Assembly: GCA_021297795.1 (NCBI GenBank)
Contig: JAJTGL010000019.1
Span: 1-58,256 of the forward strand
Direction: 5' to 3'
Source: Planctomycetaceae bacterium
GTDB lineage: Bacteria; Planctomycetota; Phycisphaerae; Phycisphaerales; SM1A02
Length of the DNA: 58,256 nt
The translations under genes were made by a program, and so were the position numbers. Below are positions 12,178-54,100 of the stretch, one piece after another. Below the pieces are notes generated by a model. The model ran no database searches. It was given only the letters and a program-made list of their open reading frames with translations, and was not told the DNA's origin. Each line of letters starts with the position of its first letter. Within the stretch, counting starts at the first letter, position 1.

Positions 12178-15033
12178 TCAGCCCCAGGCGCCCAGCAGGC
12201 CGGCCAGGTCGCTCGCCTCGACGCTGCCGTCGCCGTTGAGGTCGCCCACGCCGCCGGTACCCCAGTTGCTGAGCATGATCGCGAGGTCGGCCGCGTTGAC
12301 CGTGCCGTCGCCGTTCAGGTCGGCAGGGTTGCCGCAGACGATCTTGCGGAGACGCACCTCGTCGACGGCCGCCTCGATGAGCGAGCCAGTTCCGGCGTCA
12401 TCCGCGATGAAGCGGATGCGGACCTGGTTGGTCGGAGCCACGAAGTCCGCGACGCGGAACTCCTTGAAGATCCAGCCGCCGTTGACCTCGGCGCCCGTGG
12501 GTCCGACGGTCTCGAGCGGAACCCAGGTGGAGCCGTTGTTGTTCGAGATCTGCACGCGGAAGGTGTCCGCGTTCGGCGAGCCGCCCTGCTGGTTCGAGTA
12601 CCAGCGGTGGTAGGTGACGTAGGCTTCGCCACCCGACGCATCCATGGTTGGTGAGGTGAGCGTGGTGAAACCGCCGTCGACGTCATTCTCGCCGAGCGAA
12701 CCGCCCGCGGTGCCCTGGCCGGTGAAGAAGCAGTTCACGCCAGGTGCCGCCGTGACGTCGTTGTCGGGCTGCACCGGGGTCGCTCCGCTCGTGGTTCCCA
12801 GCGGGTCGCCACGGACCCAGACTCCGGACGTCGCGGTGTCGCCCGCGGAAGTCAGCGTCCAACCGAGGTTCGTTTCGACGGTGTCCACGAACGCCTCGTT
12901 GAGGCCCGTGGCCGACACGGCGAGATAGACGTTGGTCGGTGCATCGGTCGGGTCGTTGACCGCCACACCGGAGGTGGCATTCGCCGAAACGTAGTACTGG
13001 ACAGCGCTGCCGCACGGGAGCGCGGGGAAGGTCGCGCGGTAGTTGTTCGGCGAGAGCTGGACGGCGTTCACCTGCGTGAACGAGCCCGTCGGACCGACGC
13101 GGTAGAACAGCTTGCCCGTGTTCGGTGCGGGGCTACCGGCGAGCGCGACTGCGTTGAAGTCGACCGTCGTGCCTCCCGCGGGTGCCGTGAACGCCGGACG
13201 ACCCGAGGGGAACGAGATGCCGATCAGCTGGAGCGCCGGACCCGGAAGGCCGTGCAAGCTGAACGCGTTGTTGATCGCCGTGTAGTTCGGCGTGCCGTTG
13301 GCGATGTTGCCGTCGTTGTCGTCGATCGTGAGTACGTCGATCGTGATGTCGGCGTTAATGCTCGTTCCGGTGTGCAGGAGGACCGCGTCGATCGCAAGGT
13401 TTGCGAGCGTGGTGCGGTAGGTCGACGGCTGCGACGCGAGGAGGTTGTCGCGGAGATCCCAGAAGCAGCCCGAGAGGAGCTGGCCGCACGAATGGATCGC
13501 GCTACCGCAGCTCGAGCAGCCGGTCGACGAGAACTGGCACGTGTTGTCGGCGTTGCGGATGCCCGTACCGCACGTCTGGAAGCCGATCGCGAGGCGCGGA
13601 TCATCTGAGACGAGCACGCTGCACACGTCGCCGTAGCCTTCGCCGAACTCGCCCTGGCCCGAGCCCGCGCGGTTCACGAGGTGGTGTCCGTACTCGTGGT
13701 GGACGACTTGGCTAAACGCGGTGTTGTTGCAGCCGCCGCCCGAGGGATAGAAGTTGATCGAGGTTCCGTTGTAGAACGCGTTGCAACTGCCGGTGACCTG
13801 CACATTAATCGGCCAGCTGGTCTGCGAGCCGATCGATGGGTACGAGGGGTTCGCCGCCAGCGCGGTGTCGCGGATGTAGTTCGCGTGGATATACGCGTTG
13901 ACCTCCGCCAGCTGGTCCTCGACGTTGTTTGCCGCGTTGTGGACAAAGCTCAGCGCGCCGCCGGCGCTCGACTGGGTGAGCGTGCCGATGGCGCCGTTCG
14001 CAACGTCGTTCACCGCGAACCACTGCCCGGAGACCGTCGATGTGAAACTCGTGCTCGCCGAGATATTCGGGATTGTGAGCACGCCTGCGGCGTTCGCGTA
14101 GAGCGTGGTCGACCCGTAGGTGACGCGTGCATAGGGGAGCGGAAGCGAGGACTCGGCGTTGCACGCCGCGGCGGCCGCGCCCTGGGTGGCGAGGCCCGTG
14201 ACGGTGACATTCACGTCGGCGTGCAGGACCTGATCCTCCTGGAAGAGGATCTTGCCGGTCTCGCTGTCGACGATGTAGAGCATGCGCTGGTAGAGGTCGC
14301 GGTCGAAGACGCCGGTGCCCTCGACGATGAACTTGATCGCGAGGCGCGGCTCGGCGGCGGGGGCGTTGTCGTAGCCCGCCCAGATCACCTGCTCGGTGTC
14401 GGAGATGGTCGCACCGGGGCCGAACTGGTTGAGCGGCGAACGCGACACGCGCTTGAGGTCGATCTTGGACGGGGCGACCGGACGGACCTTCGGGTTGCCG
14501 ACGAGGGCGCTCACGTCGCGCAGTTCGTTCGAGACGAGGACGAGCGGGTAGCCCGGCTCGTTGCGGACAAGGCAGCGGACGCTGCCGCGGAAGACGGGCA
14601 CGCCGTTGAGGTACTGGGTGTAGCCGACGAGCGAGAAGCGGTAGGCGTCTTCGTCGGCGCGGTAGCCCATCGGGAGCACGTGGGTGCCGTCACCGTTCGG
14701 GCCGATCGGGAGAAGCTGGTCGAACGAGCTGCCGAACATCGCGGTGTGCGCGCGGAGGAAGCGCTCGGCGCTGGCGACGGCGTTCGGGCCGGAGGAGAAC
14801 GCCGGTCCGTACACGCGGCTCAGGGTTCCCTCGTTGTAGAAGGTGCCCGCACCGGGGTTCGCCTCGAGGAACGCCGCTCGGGCGACCTCCGCGGAGGCGC
14901 CGCCGACGATCGGGCCGGGAAGCGAGCTGATGTTGCCCGGGGCGACCTGGGCATGCGCGGTCAGAGTGGAGGCGGCCACCGTAAAGAGGACGGCCGCAGT
15001 CATGCACGACGACTTGAGGAAGGGCTGACGCAT
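12178..15033 (-). CDS. Exported zinc metallopeptidase with C-terminal dockerin-like pair
   Basis: 951-residue exported protein. A signal peptide is clear (SSCMTAAVLFTVAASTLTAHA). An FTP-like propeptide region follows (about 60-270), then a carboxypeptidase-regulatory-like insert. The zincin site VVHHEYGHHL lies near residue 445, with GEGYGDV about 20 residues later as the likely third-ligand helix. This arrangement resembles fungalysin/thermolysin-type (M36-like) peptidases. The C-terminal third is beta-rich (reprolysin-like linker and a jelly-roll-like ADTFRVQISNNNG segment). The last about 50 residues are two dockerin-like repeats, DLNGDGTVNAADLAIMLSNW and DLNGDGSVEASDLAGLLGAW. The start at 15033 is an ATG directly before the signal peptide; upstream in-frame codons read as non-protein. 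A terminator follows. Confidence 0.88.
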   Translation of the reverse strand: MRQPFLKSSCMTAAVLFTVAASTLTAHAQVAPGNISSLPGPIVGGASAEVARAAFLEANPGAGTFYNEGTLSRVYGPAFSSGPNAVASAERFLRAHTAMFGSSFDQLLPIGPNGDGTHVLPMGYRADEDAYRFSLVGYTQYLNGVPVFRGSVRCLVRNEPGYPLVLVSNELRDVSALVGNPKVRPVAPSKIDLKRVSRSPLNQFGPGATISDTEQVIWAGYDNAPAAEPRLAIKFIVEGTGVFDRDLYQRMLYIVDSETGKILFQEDQVLHADVNVTVTGLATQGAAAAACNAESSLPLPYARVTYGSTTLYANAAGVLTIPNISASTSFTSTVSGQWFAVNDVANGAIGTLTQSSAGGALSFVHNAANNVEDQLAEVNAYIHANYIRDTALAANPSYPSIGSQTSWPINVQVTGSCNAFYNGTSINFYPSGGGCNNTAFSQVVHHEYGHHLVNRAGSGQGEFGEGYGDVCSVLVSDDPRLAIGFQTCGTGIRNADNTCQFSSTGCSSCGSAIHSCGQLLSGCFWDLRDNLLASQPSTYRTTLANLAIDAVLLHTGTSINADITIDVLTIDDNDGNIANGTPNYTAINNAFSLHGLPGPALQLIGISFPSGRPAFTAPAGGTTVDFNAVALAGSPAPNTGKLFYRVGPTGSFTQVNAVQLSPNNYRATFPALPCGSAVQYYVSANATSGVAVNDPTDAPTNVYLAVSATGLNEAFVDTVETNLGWTLTSAGDTATSGVWVRGDPLGTTSGATPVQPDNDVTAAPGVNCFFTGQGTAGGSLGENDVDGGFTTLTSPTMDASGGEAYVTYHRWYSNQQGGSPNADTFRVQISNNNGSTWVPLETVGPTGAEVNGGWIFKEFRVADFVAPTNQVRIRFIADDAGTGSLIEAAVDEVRLRKIVCGNPADLNGDGTVNAADLAIMLSNWGTGGVGDLNGDGSVEASDLAGLLGAWG

Positions 15034-31989: not shown

Positions 31990-32815
31990 TCCCGGGGCCG
32001 CGTGCGGCCTCGATGCGGGAGGGATGCTGTCACGATCCGTCGGCAACCTTGTGGACTCCAAGATCGATCGACCGTCAACTCTTCATCGATCTCAAGATCG
32101 ATTCTTGCGTGCATGACTGGCTCATCCGGTTGCATCCTGCTTTCGCGGTCGACCGGTGCGGTTCGACAAACGGTTCCCAGCATGCTCCGGGGCAACACAG
32201 CCCGGCGTCTCTTCAGTCTCTTCTCTTCAGTCTCTTCTCTTCAGTCTCTTCTCTTCAGTCTCTTCTCTTCAGTCTCTTCTCTTCAGTCACTTCAACGGCG
32301 ATCTCATTCACCGGCTCTTGCGCGGCGGGGGCTGCGCGGAGCACTCCTACAGACGATTCGGGGATGTTGTTCCTCTTGCCGGACGGAACGCCGGAGCTGC
32401 TCGGCTGTTGCAGCGGTCTCGCACCGACGCTCGAAAATCGCCCGATTCCCGTCACGTCCCCGGAGCGCCTTCGCGTGACCGGGGACGACGGGATTCAGGA
32501 ACTTCCGGGACGAGAGTACCTCCGAAAGCGCGGAAGCAAACCGTATTGGTTGGAAAGTGCTCGGAAGCCGGGTACATTCTCGACGGTGGCGGGTGGTTGG
32601 CGACCTCCGCCGGAACACGGGTTTCGGTGACGTGCAGTTGACGTGTCGTTGTCGAGTGTCCGCGGCGCGAAGCCTCGGACAGTCGCTGCGGCTGCGCGAT
32701 CTCAGGCCGGCATGCGGCTGTGAGGTGTGTCGGAGGTCGGCGGTCGTCGAGGTGGACGAGCGCGCGCGGGTGTTCCGCGCGTCGCGAGCGAGCCCGAGCA
32801 AGGTTGAGCCTCCTG
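31990..32815. other. 826-bp divergent gap before the sigma-factor gene
   Basis: Between the pseudopilin and ECF sigma genes (divergent). It holds a pyrimidine-rich 14-bp tandem array at 32211-32288. ORFs through the array exist in several frames but their translations are simply the repeat, so no gene is called. Promoters could not be identified by eye. Confidence 0.5.
32211..32288. repeat. 14-bp tandem repeat, five full copies plus a partial
   Basis: Five identical units of CTTCAGTCTCTTCT run from 32211 to 32280 and a sixth begins at 32281. The plus strand is pyrimidine-rich, the minus strand purine-rich. Perfect identity suggests recent expansion. Confidence 0.95.
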
Positions 32816-46118: not shown

Positions 46119-47249
46119 TCACATCGCGGCGAGCCGCTCGGCGAGGTCCTTCGCGGCAAGCGCGTCGACGAGCGTGTCGAGTTCGCCGGCGAGGAGCTTT
46201 GTCAGCGGGAACGACTGTTCGACGCGGTGGTCGACGGCGATCCCTTCCTTGAAGCGATAGGTTCGGATCTTTTCCGCGCGGTCGCCGGTGCCGATCATGG
46301 AGCGGCGCTCGGCGCTGCGCTTGAGATCGGCCTCGCGCTTGCGCTGCTCGTAGACGCGCGCGCGAAGGAGGCGCCAGGCTTTCTCGCGGTTCTGCCCCTG
46401 CGAGCGCGTCTCCTGCATGCGGACCTCGAGGCCCGTGGGCAGGTGGATCAGGTGCACCGCGGTCGCGACCTTGTTCACATTCTGGCCGCCCGGCCCCTGC
46501 GCGGTGGTGACCATCTCCTTCACCTCGGCGGGGTCGAGCGCGGCGTCGACCTCCTCGGGCTCGGGCATCACCGCGACGGTCGCGGTTGACGTGTGAATGC
46601 GGCCCTGCGCCTCGGTGGCGGGTACGCGCTTCACCTGATGCGTGCCGCCCTCGAACTGGAGCGCGGCGAACGCGCCGTCACCCTCGACCGTCGCGATCGC
46701 GTGCGTGAGTCCGCCGGCGTCGCCGGGCTTCGTCTCGACGACTTCGCATCGCCAACCTCGGCGGGCGGCGTAGGCGCGGTACATCTCGAAGACTTCGCCC
46801 GCCCAGAGCGCGGCCTCGTCGCCGCCGACGCCCATGCGGACCTCAAGAACGAAGCTGGCGATGCCCGCCTCTTCGCCGGTGACGAGCGCGCGGACGATGC
46901 GCGCGGCGAGCTCGCGTGTGCGTGTCTCAAGTTCGGGCTTTTCCGCGCGGGCCATCGCGGCCATGTCGGCGTCACCGGAGGCAAGGAGTTCGACGAGGCC
47001 AACAAGTTCGCCCGCTGCTCGAAGGAGTTCCGCGTAGGGCTCGAGTGTGCGCGCAAGCACGGCGCGGCGGCGCGAGAGCGCGCTCGATTTGCGGTGGTCG
47101 GAGGCGACGGAGAGATCTTCGAGTTGTGCGGCGATGCCGTCGTCCTCGGCGACCTGCTGGGAGAGGATGCGCCGGAGGTTCTCCGGGAGGAGATCGGCCA
47201 CGATCGCAAGGGCGGCGGGGGAGACGGAGTTGGCGGGGTGCGCAGACAC
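46119..47249 (-). CDS. prfA: Peptide chain release factor 1
   Basis: Terminates translation at UAA/UAG. PxT codon-recognition tripeptide is RVPATEAQGRIHT (about residue 209), which marks RF1 rather than RF2. The peptidyl-hydrolysis motif GGQ lies in TTAQGPGGQNVNK (about 253). The start is chosen as the GTG at 47249 (376 residues); the frame runs further upstream only through a repeat region and no better start exists. rpmE lies upstream on the same strand, as in many bacteria, but separated here by a duplicated segment. Confidence 0.94.
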   Translation of the reverse strand: MSAHPANSVSPAALAIVADLLPENLRRILSQQVAEDDGIAAQLEDLSVASDHRKSSALSRRRAVLARTLEPYAELLRAAGELVGLVELLASGDADMAAMARAEKPELETRTRELAARIVRALVTGEEAGIASFVLEVRMGVGGDEAALWAGEVFEMYRAYAARRGWRCEVVETKPGDAGGLTHAIATVEGDGAFAALQFEGGTHQVKRVPATEAQGRIHTSTATVAVMPEPEEVDAALDPAEVKEMVTTAQGPGGQNVNKVATAVHLIHLPTGLEVRMQETRSQGQNREKAWRLLRARVYEQRKREADLKRSAERRSMIGTGDRAEKIRTYRFKEGIAVDHRVEQSFPLTKLLAGELDTLVDALAAKDLAERLAAM

Positions 47250-47420
47250 GGTGGAACGGTGGCGGAGCGGCCGCGCGAAATGGTACGACCGGTGCCTGGA
47301 ACGTGCCGTGTAGTGCCTGGCACCGGTTGGCACGTGCCGTGCACCGAACTGCGTGCCGCGAAGTCACTGTGGCTTCGAGACTTCGGGGCGTAGGTGCTGG
47401 TGCCTGACACGTGCCGTGCG

Positions 47421-47452
47421 GTGCCTGGCACCGGTTGGCACGTGCCAGGCAC
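47421..47452. repeat. REP-like palindrome, copy 1
   Basis: GTGCCTGGCAC (47421-47431) and its exact inverse GTGCCAGGCAC (47442-47452) flank a 10-nt centre. Each half is itself a near-palindrome (GTGCC-N-GGCAC). Similar units occur upstream at about 47292-47340. Confidence 0.8.
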
Positions 47453-47462
47453 CCTCAAAGAC

Positions 47463-47490
47463 AGCGGCCGTCGCATCGCGACGGCCGCTG
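47463..47490 (-). terminator. Hairpin, probable terminator, copy in the first duplication unit
   Basis: A 12-bp stem with arm AGCGGCCGTCGC and a 3-nt loop. It has no strong T-tract on either strand. It lies beyond the duplicated rpmE tail, so it is likely a fossil of the rpmE terminator. Confidence 0.45.
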
Positions 47491-47539
47491 GATCATGCTG
47501 CTGAAGACGCGCAACCCGCAAACGGGTCGCACGCGCGGA

Positions 47540-47616
47540 TCACTTCTTCTTCTTCTTCTTGTCGAAGTAGCTGCCGGCAAACTTCTTCTGGAAGCGCTCG
47601 ACGCGGCCGAGGGTGT
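47540..47616 (-). pseudogene. Duplicated 3' fragment of rpmE
   Basis: Encodes the last about 25 residues of L31 (GRVERFQKKFAGSYFDKKK with three extra Lys) with a stop at 47540, but no N-terminus. It is the copy-1 end of the 335-bp duplication. The extra Lys come from a longer TTC run. Confidence 0.9.
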
Positions 47617-47755
47617 GGTACGACCGGTGCCTGGCACGTGCCGTGCAGTGCCTGGCACCGGTTGGCACGTGCCGTGCACCCGAGTGCGTGCCGCGAAGTC
47701 GCTGTGGCGTTGGGACTTGGGTGCTTCGGTCCCGGTGCCTGACACGTGCCGTGCA

Positions 47756-47787
47756 GTGCCTGGCACCGGTTGGCACGTGCCAGGCAC
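47756..47787. repeat. REP-like palindrome, copy 2
   Basis: Same inverted arms as copy 1 (GTGCCTGGCAC at 47756-47766 and its inverse at 47777-47787) at exactly 335 bp distance. Confidence 0.8.
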
Positions 47788-47798
47788 CATCAACGACA

Positions 47799-47826
47799 GC
47801 GGCCGTCGCATCGCGACGGCCGCTGG
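47799..47826 (-). terminator. Hairpin terminator candidate of rpmE
   Basis: A 12-bp stem (arm AGCGGCCGTCGC) with a 3-nt loop, about 50 bp beyond the rpmE stop. The tail (GTCGTTGATGG on the minus strand) is only weakly T-rich, so termination efficiency is uncertain. Confidence 0.5.
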
Positions 47827-47876
47827 AAAGCGCTTGGATGAACACGCGCGCCCCGCGGACGGGTCGCACGCGCGGA

Positions 47877-48101
47877 TCACTTCTTCTTCTTGTCGAAGTA
47901 GCTGCCGGCGAACTTCTTCTGGAAGCGCTCGACGCGGCCGAGGGTGTCGACGAAGGTCTTCTGACCCGTGAAGAAGGGGTGCGAACCCGACCAGATTTCG
48001 ACGTTCATCTCGGGCACCGTCGCGCCGACGGTCATCACGACCTCGCCACGGAAGATGACCTTGCAGTCGGGGTAGTACTTGGGGTGGGTTTCCTTCTTCA
48101 T
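47877..48101 (-). CDS. rpmE: 50S ribosomal protein L31
   Basis: 74-residue bL31 of the large subunit. MKKETHPKYYPD, VGATVPEMNVEIWSGSHPFF and VDTLGRVERFQKKFA are characteristic. Only one Cys (Cys13) is present, so the four-Cys zinc site of the C+ form is absent. The Lys-rich end is duplicated downstream. prfA follows on the same strand beyond the duplication. Confidence 0.95.
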   Translation of the reverse strand: MKKETHPKYYPDCKVIFRGEVVMTVGATVPEMNVEIWSGSHPFFTGQKTFVDTLGRVERFQKKFAGSYFDKKKK

Positions 48102-48515: not shown

Positions 48516-48851
48516 ATGGCCGACGCCGCGAACACCTTCCACGTGACCAGCGAGAACTTCGACGCCGAGGTCGTGCGCGGGACGACCCCCGTACTCCTCG
48601 ATTTCTGGGCCGAGTGGTGTCCGCCATGCCGGATGCTCAAGCCCGAACTCGCCGCACTGGCGCCTGAACTTGCCGGGAAGGTTCGCATCGGGTTCGTCGA
48701 TGTCGACGCGGAGCCCGAGATCGCGAGCGCGTTTGCGGTGCGCGGCATCCCGGCGCTGTTCCTGATGAAGGACGGCGAGGTCATCGACTCGTGGACCGGC
48801 TACATGCCGCGCGCGGCCGTGAAGGTGCGGCTCGAACAGCTCGTCAAGTGA
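48516..48851 (+). CDS. Thioredoxin-family protein
   Basis: 111-residue cytoplasmic thioredoxin fold. The active site is WAEWCPPC (Cys35, Cys38), with Pro in place of the usual Gly of WCGPC, a variant seen in TlpA/ResA-type and some atypical thioredoxins. The cis-Pro loop is RGIPALFLMKDGEV. No signal peptide is present. Its TGA overlaps the ATG of the P-type ATPase gene by one base (TGATG), so the two proteins are probably made together; the ATPase binds metal through Cys and may need a reductant. Confidence 0.93.
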   Translation: MADAANTFHVTSENFDAEVVRGTTPVLLDFWAEWCPPCRMLKPELAALAPELAGKVRIGFVDVDAEPEIASAFAVRGIPALFLMKDGEVIDSWTGYMPRAAVKVRLEQLVK

Positions 48852-51152
48852 TGGACATGCCGGCTGCCCAAGGTCGGTCGAACGCCGTTGATCCTGCCAC
48901 GGCTGAGCCGTCGCCGGCGGTGCGCGTCGTTCCGGTCGACGGCATGCATTGCGCCGCCTGCGCGTCGAAGGTCGAGAAGGCGCTTCGCGCGGATGGCGCG
49001 GTGGTGTCCGCGGATGTCTCGTTCGCAACGCGCAGCGCGCGCATCCGATTCGATGGCGGTCGTACGGACCTTGCGGCCCTCGCCAAGCGCGTGCGCGATG
49101 CAGGCTTTGCCCTCGACCTCTCGCGCGATCCCGCCGTGCGCGCGCAGCGCGAACTCGATGAGCTCCGTGCGCTTCGCACGCGCGTCGTCGTCGGCATCGC
49201 ACTGTCGCTGCCGCTCGCCACGATCGCCATGACGCATGGCTCGGTGCCCTGGCTTGCCGGAAAGGGCGCGGCGTGGGCGCAGTTCGCGCTCGCGACCCCG
49301 GTCTTCCTCTGGTGCGGATGGCCGATCCATCGCGCGACCTTCGCGCGCCTGCGCGCCATGGGAACCGACATGCACACGCTCGTCTCGCTCGGGACGACCG
49401 TCGCGTTCGCGGCAAGCGCATGGACGCTGCTCACGGGAGACTTCGCGCATGCCGAGCACGCGCCGCACCTCTGGTTCGAGGCGGCGGCGATCATCCTCGT
49501 CTTCGTGCTGATCGGTCGCCTGCTCGAGGCGCGCGCCACGCAGAGGGCCGGCGAGGCGATGCGGGCGCTCGGCGCGTTGGCGGTGCCGACGGTGCGGGTG
49601 GTCGAGATCCTCGGAGGGGCCGAGCACGAGCGCGCGGTCGGCGCCGAGGAGATCGAGCCGGGCATGCGCGTGCGGATCCGGCCAGGCGAACGGGTGCCGG
49701 TCGACGGAACGGTGATCGTGGGTTCGAGCGAGATCGACGAGTCGATGCTGACCGGCGAGACGATGCCGATCGTCCGGCGTGCGGGCGATGCCGTCACGGC
49801 GGGCACGCTCAATACGGTCGGCGCACTCGATGTCGTGGCGACGCGTACGACCGCCGACACCGTGCTTGCGCGGGTGGTCGCGATGGTCGACGAGGCGCAG
49901 GCCACCAAGGCGCGCATCGCGCGTACGGCCGACCGAGTGGCGGCGGTGTTCGTTCCGGCGATCCTGTTGGTCGCCTTCGGGACCCTCGCGGCGTGGCTCG
50001 TGCTCGCGCCGTCGGACTGGCCTGCCGCGCTGCGCCATGAGCGCGCGCTCGAGGCGTTCGTCAGCGTGCTCGTCGTGGCGTGCCCGTGCGCGCTCGGACT
50101 GGCGACGCCGGTGGCCGTGATGGTCGCCTCGGGACGGGCCGCGCAGCGCGGGATCCTCTTCCGAACCGCGGCGGCCTTCGAGAAGCTCGCGAGCGTGCGT
50201 GCGGTCGTCCTCGACAAGACCGGGACCATCACCCAGGGCGAGCCGCGAGTCGTCCGCGTCGTGCCGACGGCCGGGTGCGATGTGCCGACGCTGCTCGAGG
50301 CCGCGGCATGCGTCGAATCGACGAGCGAGCATCCCGTGGCCCGCGGCATCGTCGCGCACGCCCGCGAGCTCGGCCTCGCTGTCCGCGCGCCGGAGGAGTT
50401 CGTCGCGGTTCCCGGTGAAGGGGTTCGCGGTGTCGTGATGGTTGGTGGACGTCGCGCGTCGGTCGCGGTCGGACGCGCCTCGTGGGTGCACTCCACGGCG
50501 CTGGCCTGGAGCGGGAGTGCGATCGATGTCGACGGGCAGGCGTCGGCGTGCGTGGCGATCGACGGCGTGCTTGCAGGCACGATCGAACTTGAGGATTCGC
50601 TGCGCGCATCGGCGGTCACCGCGGTCGCCACGCTGCGGAAGCAAGGGATCGAGGAGTGGATCGCGAGCGGCGACGCTGCAGCGCCGGTCGCGCGGGTCGG
50701 GTTCGAACTGACGATACCGACCGCGCGAGTGCGTCATGGCATGACACCGACGTCGAAGGCGGAACTCGTGCGCGAAATCCATGCGCGTGCGCCGGTCGCG
50801 TTCGTCGGCGACGGGATCAACGATGCGGTCGCGCTTGCCGCGGCCGACGCGGGTATCGCGATGGCGGGTGGCACCGATGTCGCGAAGGGAAGCGCGGACC
50901 TCGTCCTTGTCTTCAACGATCTCGCGGCGATCCCCGCTCCCCGCGGCGATCGGCCACTCCCGCGCCACCCTGCGCGTGATCAGGCAGAACCTCGCGTGGG
51001 CCTTCGGCTACAACGCGGTGCTCATCCCGCTCGCGGCGGGCGCGCTCTTCCCGTGGACGGGCACGCTGCTCCCGCCGGTCGCGGCAAGCGCGGCGATGGC
51101 GCTCTCGAGCGTGACGGTCGTTGCGAACAGCCTGCGTCTCCGGAATGCCTGA
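48851..51152 (+). pseudogene. copA: CopA-like heavy-metal P1B-type ATPase, frameshifted near the end
   Basis: Exports Cu(I) or a related soft metal. The N-terminal HMA domain has VDGMHCAACASK (Cys34, Cys37). Membrane motif CPC lies at about 412 (VVACPCALGLATP), the phosphorylation site is VLDKTGTITQGEP (about 454) and the hinge is [11 protein letters not shown]. After NDLAAIP (about residue 693) the frame is broken: an extra 7 bp (GCTCCCC, about 50934-50941) interrupts what would read [20 protein letters not shown]. The remaining two membrane helices ([37 protein letters not shown]) continue in another frame to a stop at 51152. Without repair the product is an about 830-residue chimera with a nonsense tail. 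Confidence 0.88.
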
Positions 51153-51161
51153 GCGGTCGGT

Positions 51162-54100
51162 TCACGCCCGCGTCGCCACGCCGATCGGCTGCGTCGGCAC
51201 GCCCTCGTAGCGCGTTTCCTCGACGAGGAGCTCGCGCTTCATCACCACCGAGTGCGGTTCCACGATCGCGCCGCGGCCGATCCGGGCACCGTAGAGCAGT
51301 ACGGTGTTCGCGCCGACCGTGGCGCCATCCTCGATGTCGACGTGGTCGATCTTGAGCACGCGGTCCTCGAAGGTGTGCGCCTGGAAGAGCGCCTGCACCG
51401 TGACGTCGTCGCCGAAACGGAGCATGTCGGGATCGACGACGTGCGAAAAGCCGCTGCCGAGCAGTGCGCGCCGCCCGATGCGACAGCCCATGAGCCGAAG
51501 GTAGACGACGAGGAGAAGCGTCCCCTCGAGGAACGCGAGCGGCAGCGACGCCCACATGCCCCACATCACGTAGAGATAGTCCCATCGGCTGCACCAGCAG
51601 CTCCAGAGGGCGTGCGTGCCCGGCTTGACGCGCGCGACGAGCAGCCACTTCGCGACAAGCACCGCGCCGGCAAGCGCCGCACACGACGCGAGCAGCGTGA
51701 CCGGCAGCCAGCCGAGGCGGAAGGCGAGCGTCTCGACACGGTCGTGCGCAAGCTCGAGCACCCGGTACGCCGTGAGGGCGACGAACGCCGGCCCGATCGG
51801 CAGCGCGAAGCGCGCCAGCTCCCACGCCCATCGGTTGACGCGACGGAGGAGCGGCGGATCATGCGTCAGTTCGCGGGGCATCGCGACGATCTCGCGCTTC
51901 GGCAGCCGGAACACCGGATGACCGAACCACGAGGCGCCGGCCTCGTCGGGAAGGCCGTCACCCCGCGTGGAGATGCCGACGAGCGTCTCGCGCGCCATGC
52001 GCGTGCCCGCCGGGAGCACCGCGTGGTTGCCGACGAAGCACGATTCCTCGAGGCGCACCGGCTCGATCGTGGCGGTACCCGCGTGCAGCGTGGGGCCGCC
52101 AAGGTAGATGCCGTCGGCGAAGAAGGTCTCGCGGCCGATCTCGACGGTCGATGGGACGACGTCGGTCACGGTCGAGATCTCGCAGCCGCGACCGATGCGC
52201 GCGCCGGCGAGATTGAGCCACATCGGCCACATGATCGTGCCGGAGAGCCACTTGCCCGCGCCCTCGACGAGCATCGACTGGAGCGACATCCGAAGGCTGG
52301 CGACGCCGCCGAGCGCGTAAGGGCCCCGCGGCGCGCTTCCGAGGAGCCGTACGCAGAGCGCCTGCATGAAGACGGTCGCGACACCGGCGCAGATGGTGGC
52401 GGCGGCGAGTCGGAGGAGCCCCGAGGCCGTGGGAAACACCGACCCTTCGGCGAAGAGCCCGCCGATCGGATGGGCGTTGCCGTTCGCGTCGGGTGCGAGG
52501 CCGAACAGTCGCGCGGCCAACGCCCACGGGATGAGCAGTGCGGAAACGATGGCGCCGAGGAGAAGCAATCCGACCGCCGCGCGGAGCACGGGCGCAGGCG
52601 GGCGAGAGACGGCCGGTGGCGGCGGTGCGCTCGTGAGTCGCTCGGCGGGAACCCCGTCGAGGATCGCGTGTGCATCGACGCGACCGGGTCCGAGGCTCGA
52701 CAGGGCGCGGAGGATGCTCCCTTCGCCCAGTTCCGCGCCGGGCGAGAGTCCCGCGCGCGTCTCGAGCGTTGCGCCTCGGCGCACGGTCACCGGCCCGACG
52801 ACGAGCGTGCCCGCCTCGAGCTCGACCGTGCGCAGGCACGCGTCCTGCCCGATCGTCGCGTCGTCCTCGAGCGTGAGCAGATCCCAGCCGCCGTCGGTGA
52901 GCCGGACGCCGCGATGGATGTGCACGTTGCGTCCGATGCGCGCGCCGAGAAGCCGCAGCGCATGCGGGGCGATGCCGACCGACTCGAGCATCTCCCATGG
53001 GGACAGCGCGACGAGCCGCACCACGATCCAGTGGCGGAGGTGCCACCATCCGAACGCGCGCACGCGCATCGGACGGTAGCGGCCGATGAGCGTCCACTTC
53101 GCCCCGACGCCGACGACGACCGCGAGCAACGTGTACGCGAACACCGCGGCCCCGGCGGTGATCGCCACCGCGAGCACCGCGAGCGGTCCGTCGATCCACG
53201 CGCTCTCGATGTGCGTTCCGAGGCTTGGAATCCACAGGAACTGCGCGAAGGCGAGGACGAGGGCGCCGAGGAACGCCGTCTGCACGAGGGTGAACGCGAC
53301 GGGTCGAGCGGTGCCTTCGATCGGGAGTCCCGATGGCCCTTGCGCGCGCCTGCTCCCGTCGCTCGTCGGGGCCTCCGTCGCGCGAGCTCGCATGGCGTCG
53401 ATCTCGGTCGCCATCGCGCGCACCGTGCGGTGCTGATAGGCGAGCCGTACGGTCGCGGCGCGGGTGCTCACGTCGCCGCGGAGGCGCGAGATCGCGATCG
53501 CGATGGTGAGCGAGTCGAGCCCGAGGCCCTCGAAGAGATCGACATCGACCGGGACCACGCCGTCCGTGCCGAGCGCGCTGGAGAACGCGGCGGCGACGAC
53601 CCGCTCGGTGGGGGTCTCGGGCGGCGAGCCACCGACATCGAGCGCGCGGTCGCCGCCGGCGGCCCGTGGAAGCCGGCGGCGATCGAGCTTCCCGCCGACG
53701 CTGCGCGGCACCGTGTCGATCGTCTCGATCACGGCGGGCACCATGTAGGCCGGAAGCTCCGTGGAGAGCGCGGCGCGCAGCGCGTCGGGTTCGATCGCCG
53801 CACCCTCGCGTGCGACCACGAACGCGACGAGACGCGCGCGCGGCGTTCCCGCGTCCTCGACCGTCGCCGCAGCCTCGAGGATGCCCGGCTGCGCGGCAAG
53901 CTTCGCCTCGATCGCGCCGAGTTCGACGCGGTATCCGCGCAACTTCACCTGCGCGTCGATGCGACCGTGGTAGTGGAACTCGCCGCGCGCGTCGCGATGG
54001 ACGAGGTCGCCGGTGCGGTACACGCGCCCGAGCGTCGGATGCGTGACGAAGCGCGCGGCGGTCGTCTCGGGGCGGCCGCGGTATCCGCGGGCGAGCGACG

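Follow-up and report, generated by a model that had tools for sequence, protein, structure and literature searches.

The window, the whole stretch of 58,256 nucleotides that was analysed, is a MAG-type contig (C110) from a Planctomycetaceae bacterium whose genome (G000) comprises 147 contigs and is 83% complete. It carries prfA and rpmE on the minus strand, and two tandem units extend from the interval between these genes into the 3' end of rpmE. The features at this locus are given here in order of position.

46119-47249, minus strand: prfA, peptide chain release factor 1, 376 aa (Pfam PF03462 and PF00472; GTG start inferred by alignment to relatives)
47282-47616, no strand: duplication unit 1, prfA-proximal, 335 nt (alignment)
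47291-47345, plus strand: REP55, first copy of unit 1 (profile match, 64 bits)
47346-47398, no strand: REPIN spacer of unit 1, 53 nt
47399-47453, plus strand: REP55, second copy of unit 1 (profile match, 63 bits)
47462-47490, minus strand: copy of the predicted rpmE terminator hairpin in unit 1, 13-bp stem, 3-nt loop, tail TCTTTGAGG
47540-47616, minus strand: detached 3' end of rpmE, copied with its stop codon; lacks a start and has two additional Lys codons (alignment, partial rpmE match)
47616-47617, no strand: duplication junction, 1 nt of shared sequence (T) (sequence and alignment)
47617-47947, no strand: duplication unit 2, rpmE-proximal, containing the end of the intact rpmE, 331 nt (alignment)
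47626-47680, plus strand: REP55, first copy of unit 2 (profile match, 64 bits)
47681-47733, no strand: REPIN spacer of unit 2, 53 nt
47734-47788, plus strand: REP55, second copy of unit 2 (profile match, 66 bits)
47797-47825, minus strand: predicted rpmE terminator hairpin in unit 2, identical stem, degenerate T tract TCGTTGATG
47877-48101, minus strand: rpmE, 50S ribosomal protein L31, 74 aa, intact (Pfam PF01197, NCBIfam NF001809)

Global alignment and a repeat finder agree on the units at 47282-47616 and 47617-47947, and the extent and offsets (335 and 337 nt) given in a preliminary description of this DNA are correct. The repeat finder returned three direct repeats: one of 212 nt with 92% identity and an offset of 335, one of 53 nt with an offset of 337, and one of 68 nt (99%) whose offset is 331. 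The first 212 nt of the two units are 92% identical, and the full alignment contains one 2-nt indel and one 6-nt TTC indel. The tandem repeat is far beyond chance. Tandem Repeats Finder does not have the 47282-47947 repeat in its list, probably because of the indels and the divergence between the copies. Read in the direction of rpmE, each unit consists of the rpmE 3' end with its stop codon, ~50 nt, a hairpin with a 13-bp stem, a 55-nt palindrome, 53 nt, a second 55-nt palindrome and ~10 nt, so that the duplicated 335-bp block comprises a REPIN, the hairpin and the last ~23 codons of rpmE. The stop codons of the two units lie 337 nt apart and the tail copies are identical at 67 of 68 positions. 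The detached tail in unit 1 lacks a start and differs from intact rpmE by one synonymous TTC-to-TTT change and by an in-frame TTC expansion of 6 bp, which adds two AAG (Lys) codons; it was also recovered independently as a partial rpmE match (E = 1.6e-8). Both the copied rpmE tail and the expanded TTC run had been proposed earlier from the sequence, and both are borne out.

Elsewhere in the window, a 14-bp tandem repeat (TCTCTTCAGTCTCT, 6.1 copies, 98% match) lies at 32208-32293. The frame of a copper-type P-ATPase (48791-51355) loses its conserved C terminus at 50900-50970, and the expected residues are then read from a different frame (ORF 50781-51152), the switch falling at an imperfect 19-20-bp repeat; this points to a frameshift or a sequence error. 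On another contig of the same genome there is a separate tandem duplication (G000:C7:1800-2116; L214 1-317), with 117 nt at offset 200 (91%), that does not consist of REPs.

Each unit at the rpmE-prfA locus contains two copies of a 55-nt near-palindrome with 17-bp outer arms (REP55), 108 nt apart. Sixty copies of its core, GGTGCCTGGCAC, are present in the own genome, compared with none of the reversed control. With a 67-nt REP query we counted ~56 copies of REP55 in G000 and 34-45 in three relatives; REP55 thus has the size (~20-65 nt) and the many dispersed copies of a REP element. A 201-nt query detected the family in 12 of 16 genomes of the genus and, at E<=1e-5, in none of 25 genomes of the same family or order outside the genus; nine other genus genomes have 30-69 BLAST matches each. 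At the loci examined, the copies are intergenic, lying between rpmE and prfA in three species and on the flanks of transposase (RAYT) genes. The GTAG/GTGG (or CGTC) foot of REPs is missing, as no listed outer flank ends in GTAG or GTGG; these flanks have a weak 5' RAAC consensus. Of the 70 doublets in the four fully scanned genomes, 28 have their REPs 107-111 nt apart, the fixed distance expected of REPINs. A single-strand DNA fold of the REPIN gives z = -4.7, and mirrored spacer positions pair above expectation (z = 3.3), with the orientation ambiguous because REP55 is nearly symmetric. The family is genus-specific, transposase-associated and arranged as doublets. A literature search for the REP core sequence yielded nothing relevant.

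The transposase association comes from a search with the PF01797 (Y1_Tnp) profile, which found short genes of ~200 aa with HVH and YIERNP motifs in ten genomes (G000, G002-G007, G010, G012 and G014). HuH and Y---NP motifs are the signature of TnpAREP class 2 (PMC6006769), and the domain match has E = 9.6e-12; against NF047646 (REP_Tyr_transpos) E is 1.6e-13, below the cut-off of that model. REP55 lies on both sides of the gene, within ~0.9 kb, in G000, G003, G004, G006 and G012. In G000 the gene is on contig C50 (14975-15280), with REP55 at 14600 and 15430; in G014 REP55 is present on both sides up to a contig end, and one of the two Y1_Tnp genes in G010 is flanked. A second type of Y1_Tnp gene, of ~400 aa, is also found in REP-free genomes and was left out of the RAYT counts. 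A RAYT gene is present in 9 of 10 REP-rich genomes (at least 30 REP matches) versus 1 of 6 others (p = 0.008), a comparison between MAGs that differ in completeness. The exception, G011 (84% complete), is REP-rich and no RAYT was found in it, which counts against the link. A sequence search of the RAYT against solved structures gave no match. The only RAYT found in the own genome (G000:C50:14975-15280; L061, L195) has a 4-nt excess after an N-terminal MGRPHRNFEIGVPYHIAHRGNQQ stretch that shifts the frame. As read, it is a pseudogene or a sequence error, and it may be inactive now. Taken together, the family is most probably a REP/RAYT system with REP doublets (REPINs) and a non-canonical foot.

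The spacing of the doublets was analysed with a Rayleigh test on the REP matches of the four fully scanned genomes (G000, G002, G003 and G004). Outside the main peak, spacings fall in steps of ~10.75-11 nt (79-82, 117-118, 129-132, 140-144, 151-156, 163 and 175), with R ~0.6 and p ~1e-7 before choosing the period, and a period near 12.25 scores as well. The mode is 109 in G000 and G002, whereas in G004 it is 140-143 (142) and no doublet is found at 109. Between loci, the spacers show no relationship in sequence (mean identity 32%), and their mirror pairing is slight. Steps of ~11 bp are not described in the literature consulted here, and we treat them as a lead, not a result. Tentatively, and at somewhat less than even probability, we suspect a genus-level REP/RAYT family without the GT[AG]G guide, in which doublet lengths are stepped by ~11 bp (one helical turn) around a species-specific mode and the enclosed sequences are unrelated; the rpmE-prfA cluster would be one such unit, doubled. 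A conserved spacer motif, AAGTC...GACTT, was suspected and rejected, as what 45 non-redundant spacers have in common is limited to A enrichment 16-18 nt from each REP (IC up to 0.64) and a weak tendency to mirror pairing. One REP doublet occurs in both G008 (C2:13552-13714) and G014 (C259:194-356) with an identical 54-nt spacer and slightly different REPs, in contrast to the spacer divergence at rpmE-prfA.

The 29-nt hairpin between the REPIN and rpmE is identified by comparison as the rpmE terminator hairpin. In all 14 genomes compared (13 relatives and G000), a GC-rich hairpin lies 17-69 nt past the rpmE stop, and in most cases a T tract comes after it. Both hairpins of G000 have weak T tracts, in agreement with a promoter and terminator scan that gave nothing over threshold in this stretch of the window, and the hairpins may end the rpmE transcript together with the REPIN. 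An Rfam search of the locus returned only sub-threshold miRNA models. The preliminary description had the duplication separate two genes that are often co-transcribed, a view that the relatives do not support. A hairpin in every relative, an extra 1-2 kb separating the two genes in G003, G004 and G014, and a possible -10 element belonging to prfA itself make it probable that rpmE and prfA are transcribed separately in this genus.

Comparison with relatives covered 13 genus members of other species that have an rpmE; the duplication is present in G000 only and absent in all 13. Two of these relatives have REPs in the rpmE-prfA interval. In G003 one REP lies 98 nt past the rpmE coding match and another immediately before prfA, and two genes, one of them SPFH-like, lie between these REPs; G014 has a REP doublet just upstream of prfA. 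Among the genus members compared, only G003 (L108 4485-5977) and G014 (L114 4374-5201) were found to have the SPFH-like (prohibitin-type) gene in this interval. In G000, G003 and G014 the motif CGTACCAT follows 5-8 nt beyond the prfA-adjacent REP (window 47270-47285, L108 6130-6150, L114 5365-5380) and is perhaps the prfA -10 element; the REPIN of G000 thus sits between the rpmE hairpin and this motif. Several relatives that lack the REP carry TACGCT at this position in place of the motif. The three genomes are not grouped in a prfA tree of low support, and one shared insertion or repeated insertions of the REP upstream of prfA would both be compatible with it.

The two units at the locus have diverged unevenly. 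They differ at 4 of 208 positions in the REPs, hairpin and rpmE tail (2%) versus 25 of 112 in the spacers and other intergenic sequence (22%; p = 3.6e-9), with no change in the 29 nt of the hairpin and a single, synonymous one in the 68 nt of the coding tail. A simple duplication in place followed by neutral drift of both copies, as first proposed, would account for the tandem arrangement, the uniform register and the restriction to one genome, and yet it predicts at least 7.5 changes in the detached tail, even at half the spacer rate, compared with the one observed (P = 0.003). The copies have not simply drifted, and we regard this history as rather unlikely. Either unequal exchange between lineages would have joined two alleles that had already diverged under selection, or later homogenisation would have acted on part of the unit, namely the tail, hairpin and REPs.

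Unequal recombination between diverged alleles from different lineages would have made the tandem at once. The divergence profile resembles that of the orthologous loci in the sister species G002 and G011 (prfA 97.2% identical), where the tail and hairpin are nearly fixed and the intergenic sequence has diverged, and the tail differences are a synonymous change and an in-frame Lys expansion. However, both differences are derived when set against the relatives compared, which fits a decaying copy; none of these relatives offers a donor lineage with six Lys codons, and the junction is almost without homology. We consider such an exchange a serious possibility, and we lean somewhat against it.

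Units that differ like alleles could also result from a chimeric assembly in which two strain variants of the metagenome were joined head to tail, and the contig is of the MAG type. Against this, the contamination estimate is 0.81%, and the junction between GAGGGTGT and GGTACGACC has 1 nt in common with the parental contexts and no N. A k-mer assembler could hardly create such a junction without reads across it, and crossing reads should therefore have existed. An artefact is improbable, and the earlier statement that this is not a simple assembly doubling is supported.

Read in the rpmE direction, the junction joins ...CGTACCA to CACCCTCGG..., and its ends lie outside the REPs, so that REP-REP recombination did not produce it. 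In G012 (C31:17641-18017; L227) we observed a threefold array of REP plus spacer with a 108-nt period and closely similar spacers, as REP-REP exchange would give. Given that both units at rpmE-prfA carry the REPIN at the same place, the REPIN came first and the duplication second. We consider it very probable that the feature consists of two REPINs clustered in tandem together with flanking sequence, made when a REPIN placed by RAYT was doubled by a single illegitimate event. In this scenario, a RAYT transposase would have placed the REPIN between the rpmE terminator and prfA by single-strand DNA cleavage and rejoining at the REP hairpins, as in TnpAREP systems. The later event, most simply a template switch or replication slippage around the extruded REPIN and terminator hairpins, would have linked a point 10 nt beyond the REPIN to the middle of the rpmE 3' end, thereby doubling the block; this mechanism is inferred only from the near absence of homology at the junction. 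The intact rpmE would have been retained, leaving the second tail as a non-coding fossil. The host would likely have gained a doubled hairpin barrier between rpmE and prfA, with little or no protein change. The single event and the divergence of the copies were already part of the preliminary description; the dispersed, RAYT-associated REPIN nature of the palindromes and the terminator identity of the hairpin had been missed.

This class of event is already known from other bacteria. Tandem REPINs with flanks are the commonest higher-order REPIN arrangement in Pseudomonas fluorescens SBW25, where REPINs conserve length and hairpin capacity and not sequence (Bertels and Rainey 2011, PMC3116915). 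The cluster described here likewise has two REPINs with flanks in tandem and linked RAYT genes, and, as in the GII group of SBW25 (doublet spacing 110 nt there, 108-110 here), the intervening length is constrained and the sequence is not (PMC3116915). In contrast to SBW25, the REP has 55 nt rather than a 16-mer core, the phylum is another one, one flank is part of a coding gene with its terminator, and spacers of different loci lack a recognisable common sequence (PMC3116915). TnpAREP/RAYT class 2 and REPtrons share with our family the HuH motif (HVH), Y---NP and a gene flanked on both sides by genome-dispersed REPs, whereas here the REP foot has a weak 5' RAAC and no GT[AG]G guide, and the score is below the NCBIfam cut-off (PMC6006769). 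REPs tagged with GTAG or CGTC have been recorded in Planctomycetes as well (PMC3733652); they too are dispersed palindromes near RAYT-like genes in the PVC group, but neither tag is the foot consensus of the REP55 family.

From the perspective of REP evolution, the locus offers a REPIN cluster with a copied flank that can be recognised as part of a gene, so that the sequence itself shows how large the duplication is, which way it runs and where its copies join. With its unevenly diverged units, it is a test case for whether such clusters originate by slippage or by exchange between lineages. The genomes analysed here reveal what is most probably a REP/RAYT system in uncultured freshwater-lake planctomycetes. 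If the stepped spacing is true, it would imply that RAYT action or bridging by a protein requires the two REPs of a doublet to occupy a fixed face of the helix.
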